Origin: Gordonia westfalica
GTDB lineage: Bacteria > Actinomycetota > Actinomycetes > Mycobacteriales > Mycobacteriaceae
Assembly (NCBI RefSeq): GCF_900105725.1
Contig: NZ_FNLM01000034.1
Location: 1,984,001-2,048,000, forward strand
Reading direction: 5' to 3'
DNA length: 64,000 nucleotides
Positions 18,067 through 27,069 of the stretch are shown piece after piece. The notes below the pieces were generated by a model. It did not search any database. It was not told the origin of the DNA and saw nothing but the letters and a program-made list of their open reading frames with translations. Position numbers and translations under genes: made by a program. How positions within the stretch are numbered: position 1 is the first letter of the stretch; every line of letters starts with the position of its first letter.

Positions 18067-19383
18067 GTGCGATCGGTGACCTCGGGGTGGACTCGCCGGA
18101 CCGCATCGGCACTCGTCGCCGCTCTGTTGTGCGCCCTCCTGTGCGTGATCTCCCTCGGCCCGGCCGGTGTCGGACGAGCCGGGGCCGTTCCCGTCCCGAC
18201 CGGCCCGTCGCCGGTCTTCACGACGCCGGTCACCGATCACTGTCCCCACAAGGTCGGCACGCCGCCGGCAGTCGACGAATCCGAGGTCGTCGCACCGGGT
18301 TCGACGACCCCGCCCTCGCTGCCGGTCCCCACACCCGCGATCGGCGGCGACGATCTGTCCTACTGCGGCGTCGTCGCCGATCCCGCCGCGGGTCCCGTTC
18401 CGCCGCGGCTGACCTCGGCCGGATGGCTGATCGCCGATCTCGACTCCGGCCACGTCCTGGCGGCCAAGGATCCCCACGGGCGGTACCGACCCGCGTCGAC
18501 GATCAAGGTGTTGCTCGCGCTCATCGTCCTCGACGAACTGGACCTCGACGCGACGGTCGTCCCGACCGCGGAGGACTGGAGCACCGAGGGCGACTCGTGC
18601 GGGATGGGTCCGGGCGGCCACTACACCGTCCGCGACCTGCTGACCGGACTGGTCATGGTGTCGGGGAACGACTGCGCCAACGCACTCGCCCGCGAACTGG
18701 GTGGCGTGGAGACCACTCTGGAGAAGATGAACGAGCGCGCCCGCGAACTGGGCGCCGCCGACACCCGCGCGGCGAGCCCGTCCGGCCTCGATGCCGCCGG
18801 AATGTCCTCCTCACCGTACGATCTCGCACTGATCTTCCGAGCAGCCATGGCGCAGGAGACCTTTCGGGAGCTGATCGCGAAACCGACCTTCCGGTTCCCC
18901 GGCTACCCGCGCCGTCCTGATGTGCCCGGCGACAAAGACCATCCGGCCTACGACATGTACAGCAGCAATCGTCTTCTCGTGGACGGGTATCCGGGGATGC
19001 TGGGCGGCAAGACCGGCTACACCGACGACGCCCGCAAGACCTTCGTCGGCGCAGCCGAACGCGACGGGCGCCGCATCCTGATCGTGCAGATGTTCGGCTT
19101 GTCGGTGGAGGGCGACATGTACTCGGACCAGGCACGGGAGATGTTCGAATACGGCTTCCGTACCGGCCCGGACGTCACCGTCGGACGTCTCGTCGAGCCG
19201 ACCGGCGACGAGGCCGCGGAACCGCCTGCGCGGCGAGCTGCGTCGTCGTCGGACTCACACCTGGCGAGTTCTGGTTCCGACACCGCTTCCCCGATGTCGG
19301 TGCGCGTCCTGATCGGTCTGGTGTCCGCGCTGGCCGCAGTGATCCTGCTCCTGTTGGGCCTCAGGCTCTTCGGGCGCAGGTGA
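18067..19383 (+). CDS. dacB: D-alanyl-D-alanine carboxypeptidase (PBP5/6 type)
   Basis: Trims the terminal D-Ala of peptidoglycan stem peptides outside the membrane. Signal or anchor segment at about residues 10-40. Active-site motifs are in order: SxxK in PASTIK (about 142-146), SGN near 198 and KTG in GGKTGYT near 315. A C-terminal transmembrane helix (about 410-432) follows a Ser/Ala-rich linker and ends in RLFGRR. The 438-residue length with both anchors agrees with mycobacterial DacB1 (Rv3330). Starts at GTG 18067. Confidence 0.92.
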   Translation: MRSVTSGWTRRTASALVAALLCALLCVISLGPAGVGRAGAVPVPTGPSPVFTTPVTDHCPHKVGTPPAVDESEVVAPGSTTPPSLPVPTPAIGGDDLSYCGVVADPAAGPVPPRLTSAGWLIADLDSGHVLAAKDPHGRYRPASTIKVLLALIVLDELDLDATVVPTAEDWSTEGDSCGMGPGGHYTVRDLLTGLVMVSGNDCANALARELGGVETTLEKMNERARELGAADTRAASPSGLDAAGMSSSPYDLALIFRAAMAQETFRELIAKPTFRFPGYPRRPDVPGDKDHPAYDMYSSNRLLVDGYPGMLGGKTGYTDDARKTFVGAAERDGRRILIVQMFGLSVEGDMYSDQAREMFEYGFRTGPDVTVGRLVEPTGDEAAEPPARRAASSSDSHLASSGSDTASPMSVRVLIGLVSALAAVILLLLGLRLFGRR

Positions 19384-19395
19384 CTCGTTCCTCGT

Positions 19396-19617
19396 CTACC
19401 CGGCCGACAGTCGGATCGCACTCAGACCATGTCGTCGGGCGAAGCCTTCGGACTCCGTCACACCGGCGATCAACTCTGTGGTCGCGTGCTCGGCAGCAAG
19501 CACGAGCGCACTGTGGTGTATCGGTGACATGTCGTCGATGACGACCACCGCGCGACCTTCGCGGATCGACGCCACCGCGTGCAGCACCGAGGCCCGGTTG
19601 AGCACCACCGACGTCAT
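19396..19617 (-). CDS. RibB-like mini-protein, probable vestige of DHBP synthase
   Basis: 73 residues. The segment IREGRAVVVIDDM...ALVLAAEHATTELIA resembles the N-terminus of 3,4-dihydroxy-2-butanone-4-phosphate synthase. The catalytic acidic loop (normally DEDRENEGD) is replaced by DMSPIHHSA, and two thirds of the enzyme are absent. Its ATG overlaps the stop of the preceding mini-ORF as ATGA. It is either a relic or a small accessory protein for the flavin enzymes upstream; enzymatic activity is very unlikely. Confidence 0.5.
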   Translation of the reverse strand: MTSVVLNRASVLHAVASIREGRAVVVIDDMSPIHHSALVLAAEHATTELIAGVTESEGFARRHGLSAIRLSAG

Positions 19618-19718
19618 GACATGCTCCCGTCGTCCAGAGCGACCCAGTCGACGCCAGGCGGGAAGGCACCGAACACTTCTCGGAGGCGGCTCGGGACGAG
19701 ACCGGTCGGTTCAGTCAT
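19614..19718 (-). pseudogene. Truncated flavin reductase N-terminal fragment
   Basis: A 34-residue frame (ATG at 19716-19718, stop TGA overlapping the next ATG). Its RLREVFGAFPPGVDWVALDD segment resembles the conserved opening of the HpaC-like flavin reductase domain, which normally runs about 160 residues. The rest of the domain is missing. It sits between the ferredoxin reductase stop and the RibB-like mini-gene and was probably left by a deletion in the flavin-supply part of this cluster. Confidence 0.4.
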
Positions 19719-19745
19719 CGCATGGCTTCTCTCGCTTCAGGCTTC

Positions 19746-20738
19746 TCACAGATCGAGTACCAGTCGGGCGGTACGGGCCCGGGATACGCAGGTCATGATC
19801 ACGTCCCCGGCTTCGCGCTCGTCGTCGGTGAGCACGGAATCCCGGTGATCCGGTACGCCGTCGAGGACGGTGGTCTCGCATGTTCCGCAGGTTCCCTCCC
19901 GGCAGGAGGAGGAGACGATCACCCCGCCGGTCCGCTCGACCGCTTCGAGGATCGTTTCGTCCTCCGCGACAGTCACTTTCACCCCGGACATCTGACACTC
20001 GACCACGAAGGACGCGTCACCGATGCGCGGCCCCACCGGCTCGGCCGGGCTGAAGCGCTCAGTGTGCAGAGTCTCGCGCGGCCAATCGGCCGTTTCCGAT
20101 TCGATGGCCGTCAGGAGCCCCTCCGGTCCGCAGCAGTACACGCCGACGCCCTCTCGCGGTTCACCGAGAACCCGCGTCAGGTCCAATGGGCCGACCTCGT
20201 CCTGTGGGTACAGGACGACCTTGTCGCCGTACCCGGCGAGTTCCTCTGCGAAAGCCATCGAATCCCGCGTACGTCCGCCATAGTGCAGCGACCATGGGAC
20301 ACCCCGCTCCTCGGCGTCGCGGAGCATCGGCAGAATCGGCGTCACCCCGATCCCTCCAGCGATGAACAGGTACTCGTCGGCATCGTCGAGCGGGAAGTGG
20401 TTGCGCGGTCCTCGAACCCGGACTCGGTCGCCGCAGGAAAGTCGGTGCGCACGTTCGGAGCCGCCACGGCTCTCGCGTTCCCGCAGGACTGCGATGCGCC
20501 ATGTCGGCTCGCCGCGCAAGCCGCACAGCGAGTACTGCCGAACGAGGTCGTCGCCGAGGTCGAGGTCGATGTGGGCGCCCGGCGAGAAGTCCGGCAGCGC
20601 GGTCCCGTCATCCGCTTCCAACGACAGACTCACCACCCCGATGCCCACGGAGCGCACGTCGCTCACAACCACTCCGACCCACTGCGCATCGTCCGACGCG
20701 ATGGCGACCGGGCCTTTGACCACGGAAGTCTGTGTCAT
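19746..20738 (-). CDS. Ferredoxin--NAD(P)H reductase with C-terminal [2Fe-2S] domain
   Basis: 330-residue phthalate-dioxygenase-reductase-type protein. The FMN/FAD-binding RQYSLCG is near residue 70, the NAD-binding GGIGVTPILPML near 128 and VYCCGPEGLL near 200. The plant-type ferredoxin domain at the C-terminus has SCREGTCGTC and a later TCVSRA Cys. This order is that of VanB/PDR reductases, which supply electrons to an oxygenase. Here it may serve the P450 or another oxygenase; the luciferase-like enzyme would need free reduced flavin instead. It is followed by two flavin-related remnants. Confidence 0.88.
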   Translation of the reverse strand: MTQTSVVKGPVAIASDDAQWVGVVVSDVRSVGIGVVSLSLEADDGTALPDFSPGAHIDLDLGDDLVRQYSLCGLRGEPTWRIAVLRERESRGGSERAHRLSCGDRVRVRGPRNHFPLDDADEYLFIAGGIGVTPILPMLRDAEERGVPWSLHYGGRTRDSMAFAEELAGYGDKVVLYPQDEVGPLDLTRVLGEPREGVGVYCCGPEGLLTAIESETADWPRETLHTERFSPAEPVGPRIGDASFVVECQMSGVKVTVAEDETILEAVERTGGVIVSSSCREGTCGTCETTVLDGVPDHRDSVLTDDEREAGDVIMTCVSRARTARLVLDL

Positions 20739-20811
20739 ACGCCATCACCTGGCCGGCCCCGAAGGCGTCGGAGGTCCTCTGGGACGTGGCGGGTTCGGAG
20801 ACCTTCCACGG

Positions 20812-22242
20812 TCACCAGCGCACGCCACGAGCGTCGATGACGCGGCGTGCCTTGAAGGTGGTCGGCTCCAGAGTTCCGGGCGTGAGGGGCTCAAACACAA
20901 TACGGATTCCCAGCCGCTGCCTCAGCACAGCCTCGGCACGGCCTACGAGCGCAGCCTGGGCTTCGGCACGTCGGTCGTCGTCCACCGCCTGCCAGGCCTC
21001 ATGGGTGCCGGCCGAGACCTCGGCGTGGACTTCGATCTCGTCCAGTGCACCTTCGGTGTGGACATGAATCCGGAATTCGGGTCCGAGTTCAGGGATGTCG
21101 CGCAACGCTGTCTCGATGGCGCTCGGATAGATGTTGGCACCCCGGATGACGAGCATGTCGTCGAGTCGTCCGAGCACGCCTTCGGGCATGCGCGGGTACG
21201 TTCGTCCGCAGACGCAGGGAGTGTCGTCGAGATACGTCTCGTCTCCGGGCGCGAAGCGGATCATCGGCTGGGACTCACGCCAGAGATGCGTGTAGATCAC
21301 CGCACCCCGCTCGCCGACCGAGATCGCCACGTTGTGATCGTTCCGATCGACGACCTCGGTGTAGACCTCGTCGGTGATCAGATGGGTACCGGTACCGGCC
21401 TCGCATCCGACGCTGGTCTGGAACGGATACATCTCCGACGTCGACCCCGCATCGGCAACCGTTGCGCCCCAGCCCTCTTCGATGATGCGTCGGGTTCCGG
21501 GCAGGCTGCCACCGGGTTCTCCACCGACCAGCACGTGCCGTACCGAACTGTTGCGCAGATCGACACCCATCCGCTCCGCGACGGACAGCAGGTGTATGCA
21601 GTACGACGGGGTCGCGCTGAACACCGTGGAGCCGAGAGTGCGGATCATCTCGATGTGCTTCTCGGAGTCGGTGACCCCCAGAGGAAAGACGGACGCCCCG
21701 ATACGTTCCACACCCTGCAGGACGCCCCAACCACCGAAGAACAGACCGAACGGGAAGCCGATCTGTACGAGGTCGTCGGGCCGCACCCCGGCACACCACT
21801 GGGCCATGGCGTGCACGTCGGCCGCCCGGTCCCAGTCACCCCGGGACACCGCGTACATTGTCGGGGTCCCCGAGGTCCCCGACGAGCCGTGGATGCGGGC
21901 GATGCCGCCGGCACCGAAATCCTTTGTGTACGAACCGAACGGCGGGTGCTCCCGCTGGTCCTCCACGAGCATCTTCTTGGTGATGACCGGTACCTTGGCG
22001 GTGAAGTCCGCGAGGGACTGCACCGCGTCGGGCCGGAACCCGTGCCGATCGTAGTGACGACGGTAGAAGGGCAGCTCTTCGTAGACGTAGCGGAGCTGGT
22101 GCTGCATCCGTTCGAGGATGCGACGTTCGCGGTCGGCGGGATCGCAGGTCTCACGGGCCTCGTCCCAGTACCGGCGAGTCGCCGGCCTCTGGTCCGTGGT
22201 GCCGGCGACCGGCCCGGAGGCGATCGTGTGTGATGAGGTCAT
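20812..22242 (-). CDS. PaaK-like aryl/acyl-CoA ligase
   Basis: 476-residue adenylate-forming enzyme of the phenylacetate-CoA ligase branch. The AMP-binding P-loop HGSSGTSGTPT is near residue 117, ADAGSTSEMYPFQT near 265 and GRLDDMLVIRGANIYPSAIE, the hinge region, near 370. The C-terminal PaaK-type AMP-binding domain is complete. It probably activates an aromatic or cyclic carboxylic acid to its CoA thioester for the thiolase encoded nearby. Same strand as the reductase and the luciferase-like monooxygenase. Confidence 0.88.
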   Translation of the reverse strand: MTSSHTIASGPVAGTTDQRPATRRYWDEARETCDPADRERRILERMQHQLRYVYEELPFYRRHYDRHGFRPDAVQSLADFTAKVPVITKKMLVEDQREHPPFGSYTKDFGAGGIARIHGSSGTSGTPTMYAVSRGDWDRAADVHAMAQWCAGVRPDDLVQIGFPFGLFFGGWGVLQGVERIGASVFPLGVTDSEKHIEMIRTLGSTVFSATPSYCIHLLSVAERMGVDLRNSSVRHVLVGGEPGGSLPGTRRIIEEGWGATVADAGSTSEMYPFQTSVGCEAGTGTHLITDEVYTEVVDRNDHNVAISVGERGAVIYTHLWRESQPMIRFAPGDETYLDDTPCVCGRTYPRMPEGVLGRLDDMLVIRGANIYPSAIETALRDIPELGPEFRIHVHTEGALDEIEVHAEVSAGTHEAWQAVDDDRRAEAQAALVGRAEAVLRQRLGIRIVFEPLTPGTLEPTTFKARRVIDARGVRW

Positions 22243-22292
22243 CGAAAGTCTGTCCTTAGCTGGCAGATACGGGCTCGCGGGACGTCAACAGG

Positions 22293-23399
22293 TCAGACCC
22301 CCAGGGCGACGCGCGCGAGCTTGTTGCGACGAGCCATGTTCTCGCGCGGGGTGAACTGCGGTGTGACGTAGCGTGCGAAGAGCTCGAGGGACCGGTTCCA
22401 CTTGTCCGTGGTCACCCAGTCACGACTGTTGATCAGGAAGGTCCCGAAACCGCCGGTGACCTCTTCGAGTTCGCGGATCTGCCGGATACAGTCCTCGGGA
22501 CTTCCGATGATCCACGGGATCTCCTCGACCATCCACTCGAAGGTGAGTTCGGCGTCGGGCATGTTCTCGTCCTTCTTCATCAGCGCGCCGAGACCGAGGC
22601 CGAGGAGATACTCGTACGACCGGTGCACGCCTTCCCTGATCTCCCTCATGGCCTGGTCCTTGCTGTCGGACACGTAGACCTCGCGAGTGATCCGCCAATT
22701 CTGACGCGCGACATCGGGGTCCAGGCCGTTCTCCGCCGCTGCGGAGGTGAGCGCGGCGGCATGGGCCGCGAGATCGGGGGCGTTGGGGTAGCCGTTGTTG
22801 TCGCCCGGCGCGAAATAGACGCTGAGCGCCTTCCAGCCCTTGGCGCCACAGCGGGCGTAGTTGTGGGTTCCGGTCAGGCCGGCGATGGCGAACGGGGGGA
22901 CCTCTTGATAGGGCCCGACCTGCAGCTGGCGGTTCTCGTATTTCCAATACACGCCTTCGTAACTCACCGGTTCGTCGGACGTCAGCAGCTGCCAGATGAT
23001 CTCGAGCGCCTCGGCGGTGCGCGGCGCGGCCTCGGATCGTTCGAGCTGGAAGAGCGCCTGATCGGTGGGCAGGCCACCACCGCCGAATCCGTACTCCAGG
23101 CGGCCGTGGGTGAGGTGGTCCAGGAAGGCCATCCGTTCGGCCACCTGGAACGGGTCCTGGTACGGAAGGTTGATCACGCCGGTACCCAGTCGAATCCTGC
23201 TGGTGAGCGCGGAGGCCTTCGCCAGCAGCAATTCCGGCATCGGAACGTTCTCGTAACCGCCGGTGTGGTGCTCGCCGATCCAGAACTCGCTGAAACCAAG
23301 CTTCTCCGCGAGGACGATCTCGTCGATGTCGCGGTCATACGACAGCGACCAGTTCTCGATCGGAGGATGTTCCGGCATCGCGAACAGACCAAACCTCAT
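22293..23399 (-). CDS. Luciferase-like (LLM class) flavin-dependent monooxygenase
   Basis: 368 residues with the bacterial luciferase TIM-barrel pattern: MRFGLFAMPEHPP start, EFWIGEHHTGGYENVPMPELLLA near residue 40, and IRLGTGVINLPYQDPFQVAERMAFLDHLT. It would use FMNH2 and O2 to oxygenate an organic substrate; relatives include limonene and alkanal monooxygenases. The ATG at 23399 has GGGAGGTCGCAC directly upstream, which overrides the longer frame. Its promoter region carries strong inverted repeats. First gene of the leftward arm of the cluster. Confidence 0.9.
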   Translation of the reverse strand: MRFGLFAMPEHPPIENWSLSYDRDIDEIVLAEKLGFSEFWIGEHHTGGYENVPMPELLLAKASALTSRIRLGTGVINLPYQDPFQVAERMAFLDHLTHGRLEYGFGGGGLPTDQALFQLERSEAAPRTAEALEIIWQLLTSDEPVSYEGVYWKYENRQLQVGPYQEVPPFAIAGLTGTHNYARCGAKGWKALSVYFAPGDNNGYPNAPDLAAHAAALTSAAAENGLDPDVARQNWRITREVYVSDSKDQAMREIREGVHRSYEYLLGLGLGALMKKDENMPDAELTFEWMVEEIPWIIGSPEDCIRQIRELEEVTGGFGTFLINSRDWVTTDKWNRSLELFARYVTPQFTPRENMARRNKLARVALGV

Positions 23400-23416
23400 G
23401 TGCGACCTCCCTATAG

Positions 23417-23453
23417 AAACCAACCTTCGGCTTGACCAAACGTTGGTTGGTTT
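23417..23453. promoter_or_regulatory. Inverted-repeat operator in the divergent LLM/Zn-ribbon promoter
   Basis: AAACCAAC at 23417-23424 is the exact inverse of GTTGGTTT at 23446-23453. Nested between them is ACCAAACGTTGGT (23435-23447), near-palindromic with 5-6 bp arms. A second symmetrical element, AGTGA-6 bases-TCACT, lies at 23468-23483. The TetR regulator at the right end of this cluster is the natural candidate to bind here. Confidence 0.55.
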
Positions 23454-23587
23454 ATTGACGCACTCATAGTGATGCGAGTCACTAGTCGGTGTCAAGCACT
23501 ACGCGCATATCGCCGTCTCGGCAGCATGTTTCGCTCGCACCCCGGGCCTCCTCCTCCTTGATAACCAGACTTACCTATGTTTATCGT

Positions 23588-23980
23588 GTGACTGTGAACA
23601 CAAGCGTCTCCCCTACCGGCACCCCCGGCACCGACCCTCGCCCCGTGATGGAACAAGCCGACGGCGTCTGGACCGTGTCCGGCTCGCGGTGCGGACAGTG
23701 CCGCCGTGCCATCGCCTACGCCTGGCCGCACTGCCCCGGCTGCGCCGGAAACGTGAACCCGGAACGCTTCGGCGACACCGGCACCGTCTGGAGCCGCACC
23801 GTCGTCAACATCGCCGTCGGAACACACGTCCCGCCGTACGAGATCGCCTACGTCGACCTCGATCACGGTCCTCGCGTGCTGGCACACGTCACCGGCGCTC
23901 CGGTGGCGATCGGCCGGGCTGTGCGTCTGCTCGCCCCGTCGGCCGAGGGCGATCTCCAGGTCGAGGCGGTGGGTGCATGA
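23588..23980 (+). CDS. Zn-ribbon/OB-fold acyl-CoA-associated protein (DUF35 type)
   Basis: About 130 residues from GTG 23588; the GTG at 23594 or ATG at 23648 are alternatives, and the last gives 110 residues. A rubredoxin-like zinc ribbon, CGQCRRAIAYAWPHCPGC, is followed by an OB-fold (GTVWSRTVVNIAV...PPYEIAYVDLDHGPRVLAHV). Proteins of this family pair with thiolase-like enzymes and bind acyl-CoA. It overlaps the thiolase gene as ATGA, which agrees with that partnership. Confidence 0.85.
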   Translation: MTVNTSVSPTGTPGTDPRPVMEQADGVWTVSGSRCGQCRRAIAYAWPHCPGCAGNVNPERFGDTGTVWSRTVVNIAVGTHVPPYEIAYVDLDHGPRVLAHVTGAPVAIGRAVRLLAPSAEGDLQVEAVGA

Positions 23981-25107
23981 GCCGCGTCGCGGTGCGCGGG
24001 GTCGGCATGTCCCGCCTCGGCCGCCAACCCGATCGGGACATCATCTCGCTGGTCGCCGAAGCCGTCGACGAAGCCTGTGCCGACGCCGGCATCGAGGCCG
24101 TCGACGCGGTCTGGGTGGGCACGGTCTTCGGCGCACCGGGGGTTGCGCAACGCGTGCTGCGGAGTATGGGCGTCACCGGTGTCCCCATCATCACCGTGGA
24201 GAATGCCTGTGCCAGCGGCACAACTGCATTCGTCGAGGCCTACGAGGCGGTCCGCACCGGCAGGTTCGGACGGGTCCTGGCGCTCGGCGTGGAACAGATG
24301 AGCACCGCGTTCACCGGCCCGATCGTGCCCGAGTCGACGGACCCGGAAGGTCGTACCGGCCTCGCGCTGCCCGCCCTGTACGCGATGAGCGCCGCCCGTT
24401 ACCTCCACGAGGGAGCGGTCACCCCGGAGCAGCTGGCCGCGGTGTCGGTGAAGAATCGCGAGCACGCGGCAGGGAATCCCCGGGCCCCGTTCCGCAACCG
24501 CCTGACCATCGACGAGGTGCTGAGCTCGCGGCTGATCGCCGATCCCCTCACACTCCTCCAATGCTGCCCGACCAGTGACGGTGCCGCCGCCGCGATCCTG
24601 GCGCCCGCTACCGGCGCCGACGGCGAGGTGACCGTGCGCGCGACCGCCATGCGCAGCGGACGCGTCTGGGACCAGTCGTCGCCCCATGTGTGGGGCTTCG
24701 ACATCGTCCGCGACACCACGGTCGATGTACTCGCCGCCGCCGCAGTCGATTCCGTTCACGACATCGACGTCTTCGAGGTACACGACGCCTTCACGATCGG
24801 TGAGATCGTGACAACCGAGGCACTGGGCATCGTCGCGCCGGGTGAGGGCGGCGCCGCGGTGGCGGCGGGGAGGACATCACTGCGCGGCGACATGCCGGTC
24901 AACCCGTCGGGCGGACTGTTGTCGCGGGGCCATCCGCTGGGAGCCACCGGACTCGCCCAGATCGCCGAGATCACCTGGCAGCTGTGCGGACGCGCGGGCG
25001 ACCGACAGGTCGGGTCGGCACGGCTCGGACTAATCGAGACGATGGGCGGAGGTGTCTCCGTCCTCGATGGGAACTCCTGTGTCATGACGATTCTGGAGGC
25101 ATCATGA
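23977..25107 (+). CDS. Thiolase family protein (SCP-x-like acyl-CoA thiolase)
   Basis: 376-residue thiolase fold. The nucleophilic Cys is in ENACASGTTAF near residue 78, VHDAFT holds the conserved His, and RGHPLGATGLAQ contains the second active-site His. The usual C-terminal Cys (CxG) loop is replaced by ETMGGG. This is typical of the SCP-x/lipid-transfer branch, which performs thiolysis or retro-aldol cleavage together with a DUF35 protein. The start overlaps the DUF35 stop and the stop overlaps the P450 start, so the three genes are coupled. Confidence 0.88.
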   Translation: MSRVAVRGVGMSRLGRQPDRDIISLVAEAVDEACADAGIEAVDAVWVGTVFGAPGVAQRVLRSMGVTGVPIITVENACASGTTAFVEAYEAVRTGRFGRVLALGVEQMSTAFTGPIVPESTDPEGRTGLALPALYAMSAARYLHEGAVTPEQLAAVSVKNREHAAGNPRAPFRNRLTIDEVLSSRLIADPLTLLQCCPTSDGAAAAILAPATGADGEVTVRATAMRSGRVWDQSSPHVWGFDIVRDTTVDVLAAAAVDSVHDIDVFEVHDAFTIGEIVTTEALGIVAPGEGGAAVAAGRTSLRGDMPVNPSGGLLSRGHPLGATGLAQIAEITWQLCGRAGDRQVGSARLGLIETMGGGVSVLDGNSCVMTILEAS

Positions 25108-26369
25108 GCACGTCCGACCTCGACGTGGACAGCGCCGATCTCCTCGGCCCCGCGGCTCTCGCCGATCCGTACCCGGTGTTCGCGTCACTGCGCGAACAGG
25201 ATCCGGTCCACTGGGACGCCAAGTACCGCTCCTGGTTCATCACCTCGTTCGAGGATGTCACCGAGGCGCTCAGAGAGCCACGATTCACCTCCAACCGCAT
25301 CACTCCGTACCGCGAGAAGATCCTCAGCCGTCCCGGCACCGACCCGCTGCTCCGTGAGGCCTTCGGCGTGCTCGACGACTGGATGGTCTTCAAGGATCCG
25401 CCGGACCACACGCGACTTCGGCGACTGCTGAGCCGAGCGTTCACCCCGCGTTCCGTGTCGCGAATGCGCCCGGCGATCGAGGCGATCGCCGAGGAACTGC
25501 TCGACCGGGTGATCGCCAGGGGCGACAACCACGTCGACCTCATCGCCGACTACGCCTATCCGCTGACGGCGTCGGTCATCGCCGAGATGCTCGGCGTCCC
25601 GAAGCAAGACCGTGATCGGTTCAAGGACTGGTCCGACCAGATCAGCGGACTCGTCTTCGGGAGTCTCGGCGATGAGGACCGGCATCGCCGGGGTGCAGAG
25701 GGGATGACCGAACTCACCGGTTACCTCGATGATCTGGTCGCCGCCCACCAGAGGTCGGAAGCCGACGACCTCATCTCGATGCTGATCGCGGCGCGTGACG
25801 ACGATGACTCGCTCAGTCACGACGAGGTCATCGCGACCGGCGTCCTGCTGCTCTTCGCCGGACACGAGACCACGACCAACCTCATCGGCAACGGAATCCT
25901 GGCGCTGCTCGAACATCCGGGGCAGCAGACCGACCTCGATGCCACCGACCCGGCGCGGGTGAACGGACTGGTCGAGGAACTCCTGCGCTACGACGGGCCG
26001 GCGAAGAGTGTGGTGCGTCTCGTGACCGAGGACATGATCTGGCGTGGGAAGCAGATGAAGGCCGGAGAACGCGTCTTCCTCTTCCTGTCCAGCGCGAACC
26101 GCGATCCCGACGCGTTCGAGAATCCCGACACCTTCGACGTCGGGCGACGCCCCGGCCGACAGCTCGGTTTCAGTGCGGGCCTGCACTACTGCCTCGGTGC
26201 ACCGCTCGCCCGGCTGGAGACGTCGATCGCGGTACCGGCCGCGCTCGGACGACTCCCCGGCCTGACACTCGATCCCCACTCGGCGATCTCGTGGGCGCCC
26301 ACGCTTCTCACGCGTGGGATGTCGCGGTTCCCGGCCACCTACGAACTACCATCGGGTCCTGATCGGTAG
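25104..26369 (+). CDS. Cytochrome P450
   Basis: 421-residue soluble P450. The I-helix AGHETTTN is near residue 255, the ExxR motif EELLR near 291, and the heme loop FSAGLHYCLGAPLARLE has its axial Cys near residue 362. Complete, with an ATGA overlap to the thiolase gene. It probably hydroxylates the substrate or an intermediate of the cluster's pathway. The ferredoxin reductase of the leftward arm may be part of its electron supply, although no separate ferredoxin gene is seen. Confidence 0.92.
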   Translation: MSTSDLDVDSADLLGPAALADPYPVFASLREQDPVHWDAKYRSWFITSFEDVTEALREPRFTSNRITPYREKILSRPGTDPLLREAFGVLDDWMVFKDPPDHTRLRRLLSRAFTPRSVSRMRPAIEAIAEELLDRVIARGDNHVDLIADYAYPLTASVIAEMLGVPKQDRDRFKDWSDQISGLVFGSLGDEDRHRRGAEGMTELTGYLDDLVAAHQRSEADDLISMLIAARDDDDSLSHDEVIATGVLLLFAGHETTTNLIGNGILALLEHPGQQTDLDATDPARVNGLVEELLRYDGPAKSVVRLVTEDMIWRGKQMKAGERVFLFLSSANRDPDAFENPDTFDVGRRPGRQLGFSAGLHYCLGAPLARLETSIAVPAALGRLPGLTLDPHSAISWAPTLLTRGMSRFPATYELPSGPDR

Positions 26370-26424
26370 CCACTAGGACGATCCATGACTGCCCGAGACC
26401 GCCCGATTCGACACAGGAGGTGTG

Positions 26425-27069
26425 ATGGCCCGCCCCAGCCGGTGGACAGATGTCGTCGAAGCGGCCGGTGAGGAGTTCCGGATCCGCGGTTACGACAGTG
26501 CGACACTCGAGGACATCGCCGCGCGTGTGGGCATCCTCAAAGGCAGCATCTACAACTACGTCCAGAACAAGGAAGAGCTGCTACTCGCCGTCGTGGAGCG
26601 TCCGGCGCATGTCCTGCTCGCCGATCTGGAACAACTGCGAGACGACGGCAGGCAGTCGGCGACCATCCGCTTGCGCACGCTGTTCCGCATCCAGGTTCGG
26701 GTCTTCAGCGAGTACTACCCCGCGGCATTCGTGTACCTACGCAACATCGGGCGCACCGATCTGTCCGACAAGTTCGGCAAGTTCGGGGAGATGGACGCCA
26801 GGTACATGAGCATCCTCGAGGACCTCATCGCCGACGGGGTCGCCCGCGGCGAGTTCAACCCACCGGTGAGCCCCAAGATCGCGGCCCTGTCGCTCGTCGG
26901 CATCCTGAACTGGATGCAGCACTGGTTCACTCCGGCCGGCGACGAAGCAGACAACCGCCTCGCCGACGACTTGTTCGCGATGGCCCTCGGCGGACTCACC
27001 ACCGGTGGGAGCCTGGCCCGGATTCTGGAGCACTCCGAAGATCGAGCCCGCCCCTCCTCGGTGGGGTGA
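26425..27069 (+). CDS. TetR/AcrR family transcriptional regulator
   Basis: 214 residues. An N-terminal HTH with TLEDIAARVGILKGSIYNYVQNKEELL is typical of TetR proteins controlling acyl-CoA metabolism. The C-terminal domain contains YYPAAFVYLRNIG and a LVGILNWMQHWFTP helix. AGGAGG at 26415-26420 supports the ATG at 26425 (GTG at 26422 is also in frame). It follows the P450 by 55 bases in the same direction and probably controls the cluster through the operator near 23417. Confidence 0.87.
   Translation: MARPSRWTDVVEAAGEEFRIRGYDSATLEDIAARVGILKGSIYNYVQNKEELLLAVVERPAHVLLADLEQLRDDGRQSATIRLRTLFRIQVRVFSEYYPAAFVYLRNIGRTDLSDKFGKFGEMDARYMSILEDLIADGVARGEFNPPVSPKIAALSLVGILNWMQHWFTPAGDEADNRLADDLFAMALGGLTTGGSLARILEHSEDRARPSSVG

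Follow-up and report, generated by a model that had tools for sequence, protein, structure and literature searches.

The stretch of Gordonia westfalica DNA analyzed here (hereinafter the window: 64,000 nucleotides out of a 6.4 Mb source genome, with all coordinates given as positions in it) carries a block of seven intact genes in two divergent arms, flanked by dacB (18067–19383) and yihY/trpS, which includes a luciferase-like flavin monooxygenase (LLM), an AMP-forming CoA ligase, a DUF35–thiolase pair, a cytochrome P450 and a TetR-family regulator. Its gene content and conservation indicate that this block is a genuine co-inherited unit for oxygenation, CoA activation and C–C cleavage, and that it is a widely shared, uncharacterized combination belonging to a known type, the oxygenase–ligase–thiolase catabolic island. 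Our tentative reading is that of a TetR-controlled catabolic island for a cyclic or branched non-sugar compound, degraded via a P450–ketone–LLM–Baeyer–Villiger–CoA–thiolysis route, with a terpenoid-like ketone or alicycle as the most likely substrate class.

Conservation of the gene set across loci

Across 84,980 genomes, one per species, a scan with the LLM recovered 164 relatives, of which the best 80, from 78 loci, were kept. Relatives at 71–96% identity are found in 32 loci (one partial); the 32 loci of the species scan and the additional loci L096, L099, L143 and L144 together constitute a close set of 36 LLM loci from six genera. DUF35, the thiolase, the P450, the CoA ligase and TetR all lie within the fetched DNA in 28 of the 36, with TetR present in 29. 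The same five partners occur above threshold in none of the 42 distant and none of the five intermediate LLM loci; many of the distant loci are short, and at a laxer limit two of them show a TetR match. Thus, the co-occurrence in other genomes that the original prediction had proposed looking for is borne out, as is its view of the block as a set for oxygenation, CoA activation and C–C cleavage. We found no description of this gene set in the literature, in a search that was thin on subscription papers and covered long sets of matches in part, and no paper on it stands among the matches listed, in keeping with the first impression that it does not correspond to a characterized pathway.

Around this core, other components vary across the close set: SDRs (two types in 19 loci each and a third in six), a second AMP ligase (16 loci), a flavin reductase gene near the LLM (nine loci, and seven of the 42 distant ones), a small protein termed k9 (seven loci, by either of two queries), and a RibB-like protein, a ferredoxin reductase and an EthD-domain protein (three loci each). 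The PDR-type reductase, originally listed as a member of the leftward arm, is indeed present there in the window but recurs in only three of the 36 loci, all from Gordonia; since it is confined to the Gordonia versions, the ancestral core probably lacked it. In the Nocardioides loci L143 and L144, ferredoxins of the 2Fe-2S and 4Fe-4S types are present together with a ferredoxin reductase, all of them expected partners of a P450.

Gene organization and the divergent spacer

Profile searches matched each of the seven named genes to its expected family, and all are open with no internal stops, so the genes and their assignment to arms stand as first described (Table 1). In the rightward arm, DUF35/thiolase and thiolase/P450 overlap by 4 bp each and 55 bp then separate the P450 from TetR, which agrees with the proposed translational coupling of all but the last gene. 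The genes of the leftward arm are close without overlapping, with gaps of 50 and 73 bp. Two coupled remnant open reading frames (ORFs) at the end of this arm had escaped the first reading. The GTG start of DUF35 was chosen in this analysis.

Table 1. Features of the two-armed block in the Gordonia westfalica window.
Feature	Positions	Strand	Evidence
RibB-like (DHBP synthase fold) remnant, 73 aa	19396..19617	-	PF00926 24.9 bits, under cut-off 26.4
Flavin reductase remnant (internal deletion), 34 aa	19614..19718	-	no Pfam match itself; aligns with full flavin reductases
PDR-type ferredoxin-NAD(P)H reductase, C-terminal 2Fe-2S domain, 330 aa	19746..20738	-	PF00111 56.7, PF00175 28.5 bits
AMP-forming CoA ligase, PaaK fold, HCL-like, 476 aa	20812..22242	-	PF14535 64.4, PF00501 30.7 bits
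LLM flavin monooxygenase, 368 aa	22293..23399	-	PF00296 150.5 bits
Divergent promoter region common to both arms, inverted repeats	23400..23587	.	188-bp spacer
DUF35 / ChsH2-C OB-fold protein, Cys4 zinc ribbon, 130 aa	23588..23980	+	PF01796 45.4 bits
SCP-x type thiolase, 376 aa	23977..25107	+	PF22691 118.3 bits
Cytochrome P450, 421 aa	25104..26369	+	PF00067 107.4 bits
TetR-family regulator, 214 aa	26425..27069	+	PF00440 46.3, PF17932 73.3 bits

The description of a common divergent promoter region with inverted repeats likewise holds: the 188-bp spacer contains the repeats AAACCAACC/GGTTGGTTT (23417–23453) and TAGTGA/TCACTA (23467–23484), along with a conserved CAAAC-N4-GTTTG-like site (23437–23450, one mismatch). 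Across 24 spacers between adjacent divergent DUF35 and LLM genes, this pattern is exact in 12 and present with at most one mismatch in 21, while 200 shuffles averaged 0.135 matches and never exceeded two, a contrast that is flattering as the pattern was read off the same spacers and some of the loci are near-identical. Counting back from the last base of the LLM start codon, 17 of the 21 sites lie at 43–93 bases and the other four at 194–201. L015, L044 and L016 have two-mismatch matches only, which in the two Gordonia among them (L015 and L044) are at another place. As the one-mismatch pattern occurs three times in the window against 0.39 expected, the single copy here means little by itself, and its position is what counts. 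A promoter scan reported a TTGATA/TATCGT pair facing the rightward arm (23558–23587); on the strand of the LLM, a TTGACA/CACTAT pair that L015 and L044 share was recognized by eye and is absent from the scan results. We posit that the two arms are likely co-regulated via the conserved repeat in their common spacer, which is the predicted target of the TetR protein.

A fuller sister operon and erosion in the source strain

At the same site, the sister Gordonia G021 (locus L096) has an LLM, an SDR, the ligase, the PDR-type reductase, a flavin reductase (PF01613, 115.8 bits), a RibB-like protein (PF00926, 160 bits) and k9, a 103-residue protein. In G. namibiensis (L015), both the SDR and the flavin reductase are retained, and G. 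alkanivorans (L044) has the flavin reductase but no SDR or full RibB-like gene. Hence, the block in the window is incomplete: the SDR and k9 are absent and the flavin reductase and RibB-like genes are cut to remnants of 34 and 73 residues. The 34-residue remnant can be aligned to the full-length flavin reductases of L044, L015 and L096, and the own-genome match covers residues 1–32 at 81%. The 73-residue remnant, whose start overlaps the stop of the preceding ORF, aligns with both ends of the 212-residue RibB-like protein of L096, with the middle missing.

These losses, together with the similar lack of an SDR and a full RibB-like gene in G. alkanivorans, would fit an island in decay that has ceased to sustain growth of the source strain on the substrate. 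We consider this decidedly improbable: the seven remaining genes are all open, and their ratios of nonsynonymous to synonymous substitution (dN/dS) against three relatives stay within 0.03–0.18 (LLM 0.03–0.04, ligase 0.07–0.11, TetR 0.08–0.12, thiolase 0.11–0.16, P450 0.12–0.15, PDR-type reductase 0.13–0.18) except for DUF35 (0.30–0.43). These ratios, which average over the whole divergence and are blind to recent loss, indicate purifying selection on the remaining genes. Moreover, the source genome has 13 flavin-reductase matches, of which ten are long at E≤2e-14, one of these ten carrying an in-frame TGA; the 34-residue remnant itself is also among the 13. Because of these further matches, reduced flavin could be supplied in trans.

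The two accessory proteins of the fuller operon recur elsewhere. RibB-fold proteins are encoded at L096:14827-15465, L101:17641-18285 and L179:12095-12772. Those of L096 and L101 lie beside flavin reductases and are without the RENEGD-type acidic motif, which is kept in Mycobacterium tuberculosis RibB and a Natrinema plasmid RibB (as RENE); this suggests relatives of RibB without catalytic activity that are associated with flavin-dependent oxygenases. The k9 protein (L096:15497-15808; relatives in L016, L028, L030, L031, L143, L144 and L145) has a motif like MVDYARSKGW and often adjoins the flavin reductase in LLM loci. The L096 copy has no Pfam match, and of 120 homologues at E≤1e-5 the named ones are mostly labeled "hypothetical", with two called Lsr2. 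Its AlphaFold2 model (predicted local distance difference test score, pLDDT, 94.6) has no match in the PDB at E≤0.001.

Insertion between dacB and yihY

YihY is present in all 59 Gordonia genomes searched, while the LLM (E≤1e-100) is found in four, counting the source genome. Among the 30 best YihY loci, all four that bear the LLM have TetR adjoining yihY, and in the 26 that lack it dacB and yihY are adjacent, with 33–321 bp between the matched parts. Thus, the block has been inserted at a single site, confirming that it interrupts the dacB–trpS gene order. The distribution is patchy: the site is empty in G005, G035 and G029 despite a YihY 86–91% identical to that of the source genome, and the block is present in G021, whose YihY is 70% identical. 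Matches to named Gordonia loci are at 95–98% identity.

We take the island to have been gained probably by horizontal transfer, with loss as the alternative. The LLMs of L016, L019 and L034 are 89, 86 and 75% identical to that of the source genome, as against 63, 65 and 71% for TrpS from the same genomes; for a fourth genome (L024), no TrpS match reached E≤1e-60. In this comparison the LLM alone is conspicuous, since the other cluster proteins of L016, DUF35 aside, are 61–75% identical. The composition of the block gave no further sign of transfer, and no tRNA was found near it.

The LLM and its relationship to Baeyer–Villiger enzymes

The LLM displays the bacterial-luciferase TIM-barrel fold (AlphaFold2 pLDDT 90.6), and both phmmer and Foldseek recover 3,6-diketocamphane monooxygenase (DKCMO), a type II Baeyer–Villiger monooxygenase (BVMO), as its best match; DKCMO occupies Foldseek ranks 1, 2, 4 and 5. 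In VIA-align comparisons, its similarity to type II BVMOs is tied with that to luciferases and RslO1. While fold scores do not separate flavin mononucleotide (FMN)-dependent from coenzyme F420-dependent enzymes, the gene neighborhoods point to FMN, because flavin reductases accompany nine of the 36 close loci and a 46% identical relative on a Natrinema plasmid adjoins SDR, riboflavin kinase and RibB genes. Two distant relatives (Bacillus L045 and Nocardioides L049/L145) have a homologue of type I BVMOs as neighbor, together with a Zn-alcohol dehydrogenase and an Abhydrolase_3 hydrolase, which could constitute a ketone-to-ester-to-acid set. A second LLM of the source genome (L187:9288-10430, C36), 33–34% identical, occurs in a separate region with an AMP ligase and SDRs; this region also has an acyl-CoA-dehydrogenase-like gene (recognized by eye) and, about 4 kb from this LLM, a weak k9-like match.

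The closest parallels are partial. The camphor upper pathway of the CAM plasmid, taken in its usual order of steps, resembles the island in its P450, its dehydrogenase (present in island relatives), its two-component LLM with a separate flavin reductase (in some relatives) and its CoA ligase. However, the LLMs are only about 25% identical, the ligase here is of the PaaK/HCL type, the island has no type I BVMO, and we know of no DUF35–thiolase in CAM. The pdc cluster of Caenibius tardaugens also combines an LLM with TetR, and that LLM has demonstrated Baeyer–Villiger activity in progesterone degradation; in the available parts of that account, no flavin reductase gene is assigned to the cluster (PMC12239570). 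In contrast to the island, it comprises four genes without a P450, ligase or thiolase. Plasmid pNL2, with its pdc-type LLM, gave no match at E≤1e-25.

Many LLM relatives are called "limonene 1,2-monooxygenase" in JGI annotation, which might suggest a terpene route with a LimB-like first step, wherein the LLM epoxidizes or hydroxylates an unsaturated terpene with no Baeyer–Villiger step. We hold this to be improbable, as the label is a transferred annotation and limonene epoxide hydrolase is absent from the nine ORFs scanned (the genome has one match to that family). Further, no match to this LLM turned up in four 15-kb regions surrounding strong LimA-like genes, although no direct comparison with a LimB sequence was made.

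The CoA ligase

The ligase has the PaaK fold and a SSGTSGTP motif, which upholds the fold part of its original "PaaK-like" label, but it is nearer to 2-hydroxyisobutyryl-CoA ligase, with 374 bits against 2-hydroxyisobutyryl-CoA synthetase (6hdw) versus 208 against solved PaaK. It is 42% identical to a ligase of the Methylibium PM1 plasmid, which we take to be the HCL of that strain. It falls short of phenylacetate-CoA ligase PaaK proper: the NCBIfam PaaK profile TIGR02155 scores 263.8 bits, under its cut-off of 646.3.

This kinship raises the prospect of a short branched acid route like 2-hydroxyisobutyrate or tert-alkyl degradation, with the P450 acting on a tert-alkyl group and a tertiary 2-hydroxy acid being activated. 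In its favor are the best solved relative of the ligase, the EthD-domain protein in three of the 36 loci, and 53% identity to a ligase adjoining two thiamine diphosphate (ThDP)-enzyme genes on a Pseudonocardia plasmid, a neighborhood of the lyase–HCL cluster type, going by the available part of PMC7176365. Nevertheless, this route is very unlikely: like HCL clusters, the block has a ligase of this family, but no ThDP lyase or B12 mutase partner is encoded in it, and the thiolase and LLM would not be needed.

The DUF35–thiolase pair and the P450

The thiolase retains catalytic Cys78 (NACASG), His269 and His319, scores 221 bits against SCP2-thiolase (6hsj) and 197 against BbsB (7pxp), and adjoins a Zn-ribbon/OB protein (CxxC-x10-CxxC at residue 35), as characteristic of SCP-x thiolase–DUF35 pairs. 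The P450 is intact, with the heme-ligand cysteine in HYCLG at 361 and an AGHETT helix at 252. Since none of the seven genes encodes an acyl-CoA dehydrogenase or an enoyl-CoA hydratase, the β-keto function would need to be supplied by the oxygenases and SDRs or by enzymes encoded elsewhere.

Pairs of the BbsAB type share the adjacent small Zn-ribbon/OB protein and the SCP-x thiolase with the Cys and HDAF motifs. However, the BbsA and BbsB profiles score only 22.2 of 250 and 206.3 of 750 bits, and there are no bbs genes. The cholesterol side-chain aldolase ChsH2–Ltp2 likewise combines a DUF35 domain with an SCP-x-like partner, but here DUF35 is a stand-alone protein of 130 residues with no hydratase partner or MaoC gene in the block, and the thiolase keeps the cysteine (Cys78) that Ltp2-type proteins have lost. 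The lipid-transfer protein chain 6ok1, presumably of the Ltp2 type, scores 83.8 bits against the thiolase.

An aromatic route, which we regard as unlikely, has an aryl-alkanoic acid or an aryl ketone as its substrate: hydroxylation of the ring or side chain would fall to either the LLM or the P450, the ligase would form an aryl-acyl-CoA, and the DUF35–thiolase pair would remove acetyl- or propionyl-CoA from an aroyl-β-keto thioester. The two closest plasmid thiolases (57–58% identical), both paired with a DUF35 of their own, are encoded in Rhodococcus operons alongside phosphoenolpyruvate (PEP)-utilizing, biotin-carboxylase and AMP-ligase genes, types also present in the hydroxyphenylethanone (Hpe) pathway; however, its cleaving enzyme is described as a predicted hydrolase, not a thiolase, in the accessible part of PMC9618137. 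The Hpe two-component kinase and biotin-dependent carboxylase genes are absent from the window block. A 61% identical LLM relative (L042) is near genes read from their sequence as aerobic benzoyl-CoA-pathway-like, and four Pseudonocardia loci have extradiol-type dioxygenases close to the cluster. However, the dioxygenases were seen in these four loci only, and the ligase is nearer to HCL than to PaaK.

Some further gene sets may be recorded here. The Rhodococcus plasmid operons L100:2162-14317 and L101:8-12313 are Hpe-like with a DUF35–thiolase pair where the published pathway, as far as the source gives it, has the predicted hydrolase. In the left part of L034–L036 and L040, the four Pseudonocardia loci, two extradiol-dioxygenase-like genes, an IclR regulator and a MetE-like protein adjoin the cluster (families checked in L034). 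Finally, L105:8010-12219 on a Rhodococcus oxybenzonivorans plasmid encodes an HCL-like ligase, a P450 and an OB-fold-annotated protein of 537 residues, C-terminally 32% identical to the thiolase and possibly a DUF35–thiolase fusion; no LLM was found there within 17 kb.

Proposed route and its significance

From gene content and weak enzyme kinship, we infer the substrate class, cofactor, regulator target, Baeyer–Villiger chemistry and order of steps of the tentatively favored P450–ketone–Baeyer–Villiger route. The P450 would hydroxylate the skeleton, and an SDR, island-encoded in relatives and missing here, would oxidize the resulting alcohol to a ketone. The LLM, with FMNH2 from a flavin reductase that in this strain would be encoded elsewhere in the genome, might then insert oxygen beside the carbonyl in a type II Baeyer–Villiger-type reaction, and the resulting lactone or ester would open to yield an acid. 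The HCL-like ligase would form the CoA thioester and the DUF35-assisted thiolase would cleave a β-ketoacyl-CoA. In the presence of inducer, TetR would free both arms from one operator region.

A bolder joint claim, which we advance as a rather doubtful proposition, is that these genes constitute a horizontally mobile pathway of actinobacteria, not described before, that combines a P450 and a Baeyer–Villiger-type LLM with an HCL-like ligase and a DUF35–thiolase pair and bypasses classical β-oxidation, aided in some lineages by two flavin accessories; these would be the RibB-fold protein without the catalytic acidic motif and the 103-residue protein, whose predicted fold lacks a solved match.

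As the copy in the source strain is stripped down, the physiology would be better tested in a strain with a fuller operon. The recurrence of the set in six genera, with no paper on it among the matches listed, makes it a good entry point to the compounds degraded by Pseudonocardia, Gordonia and other soil actinobacteria. Should the LLM indeed perform Baeyer–Villiger chemistry, it would extend the few characterized type II enzymes to actinobacterial catabolism and might serve as a genetic marker for that route.

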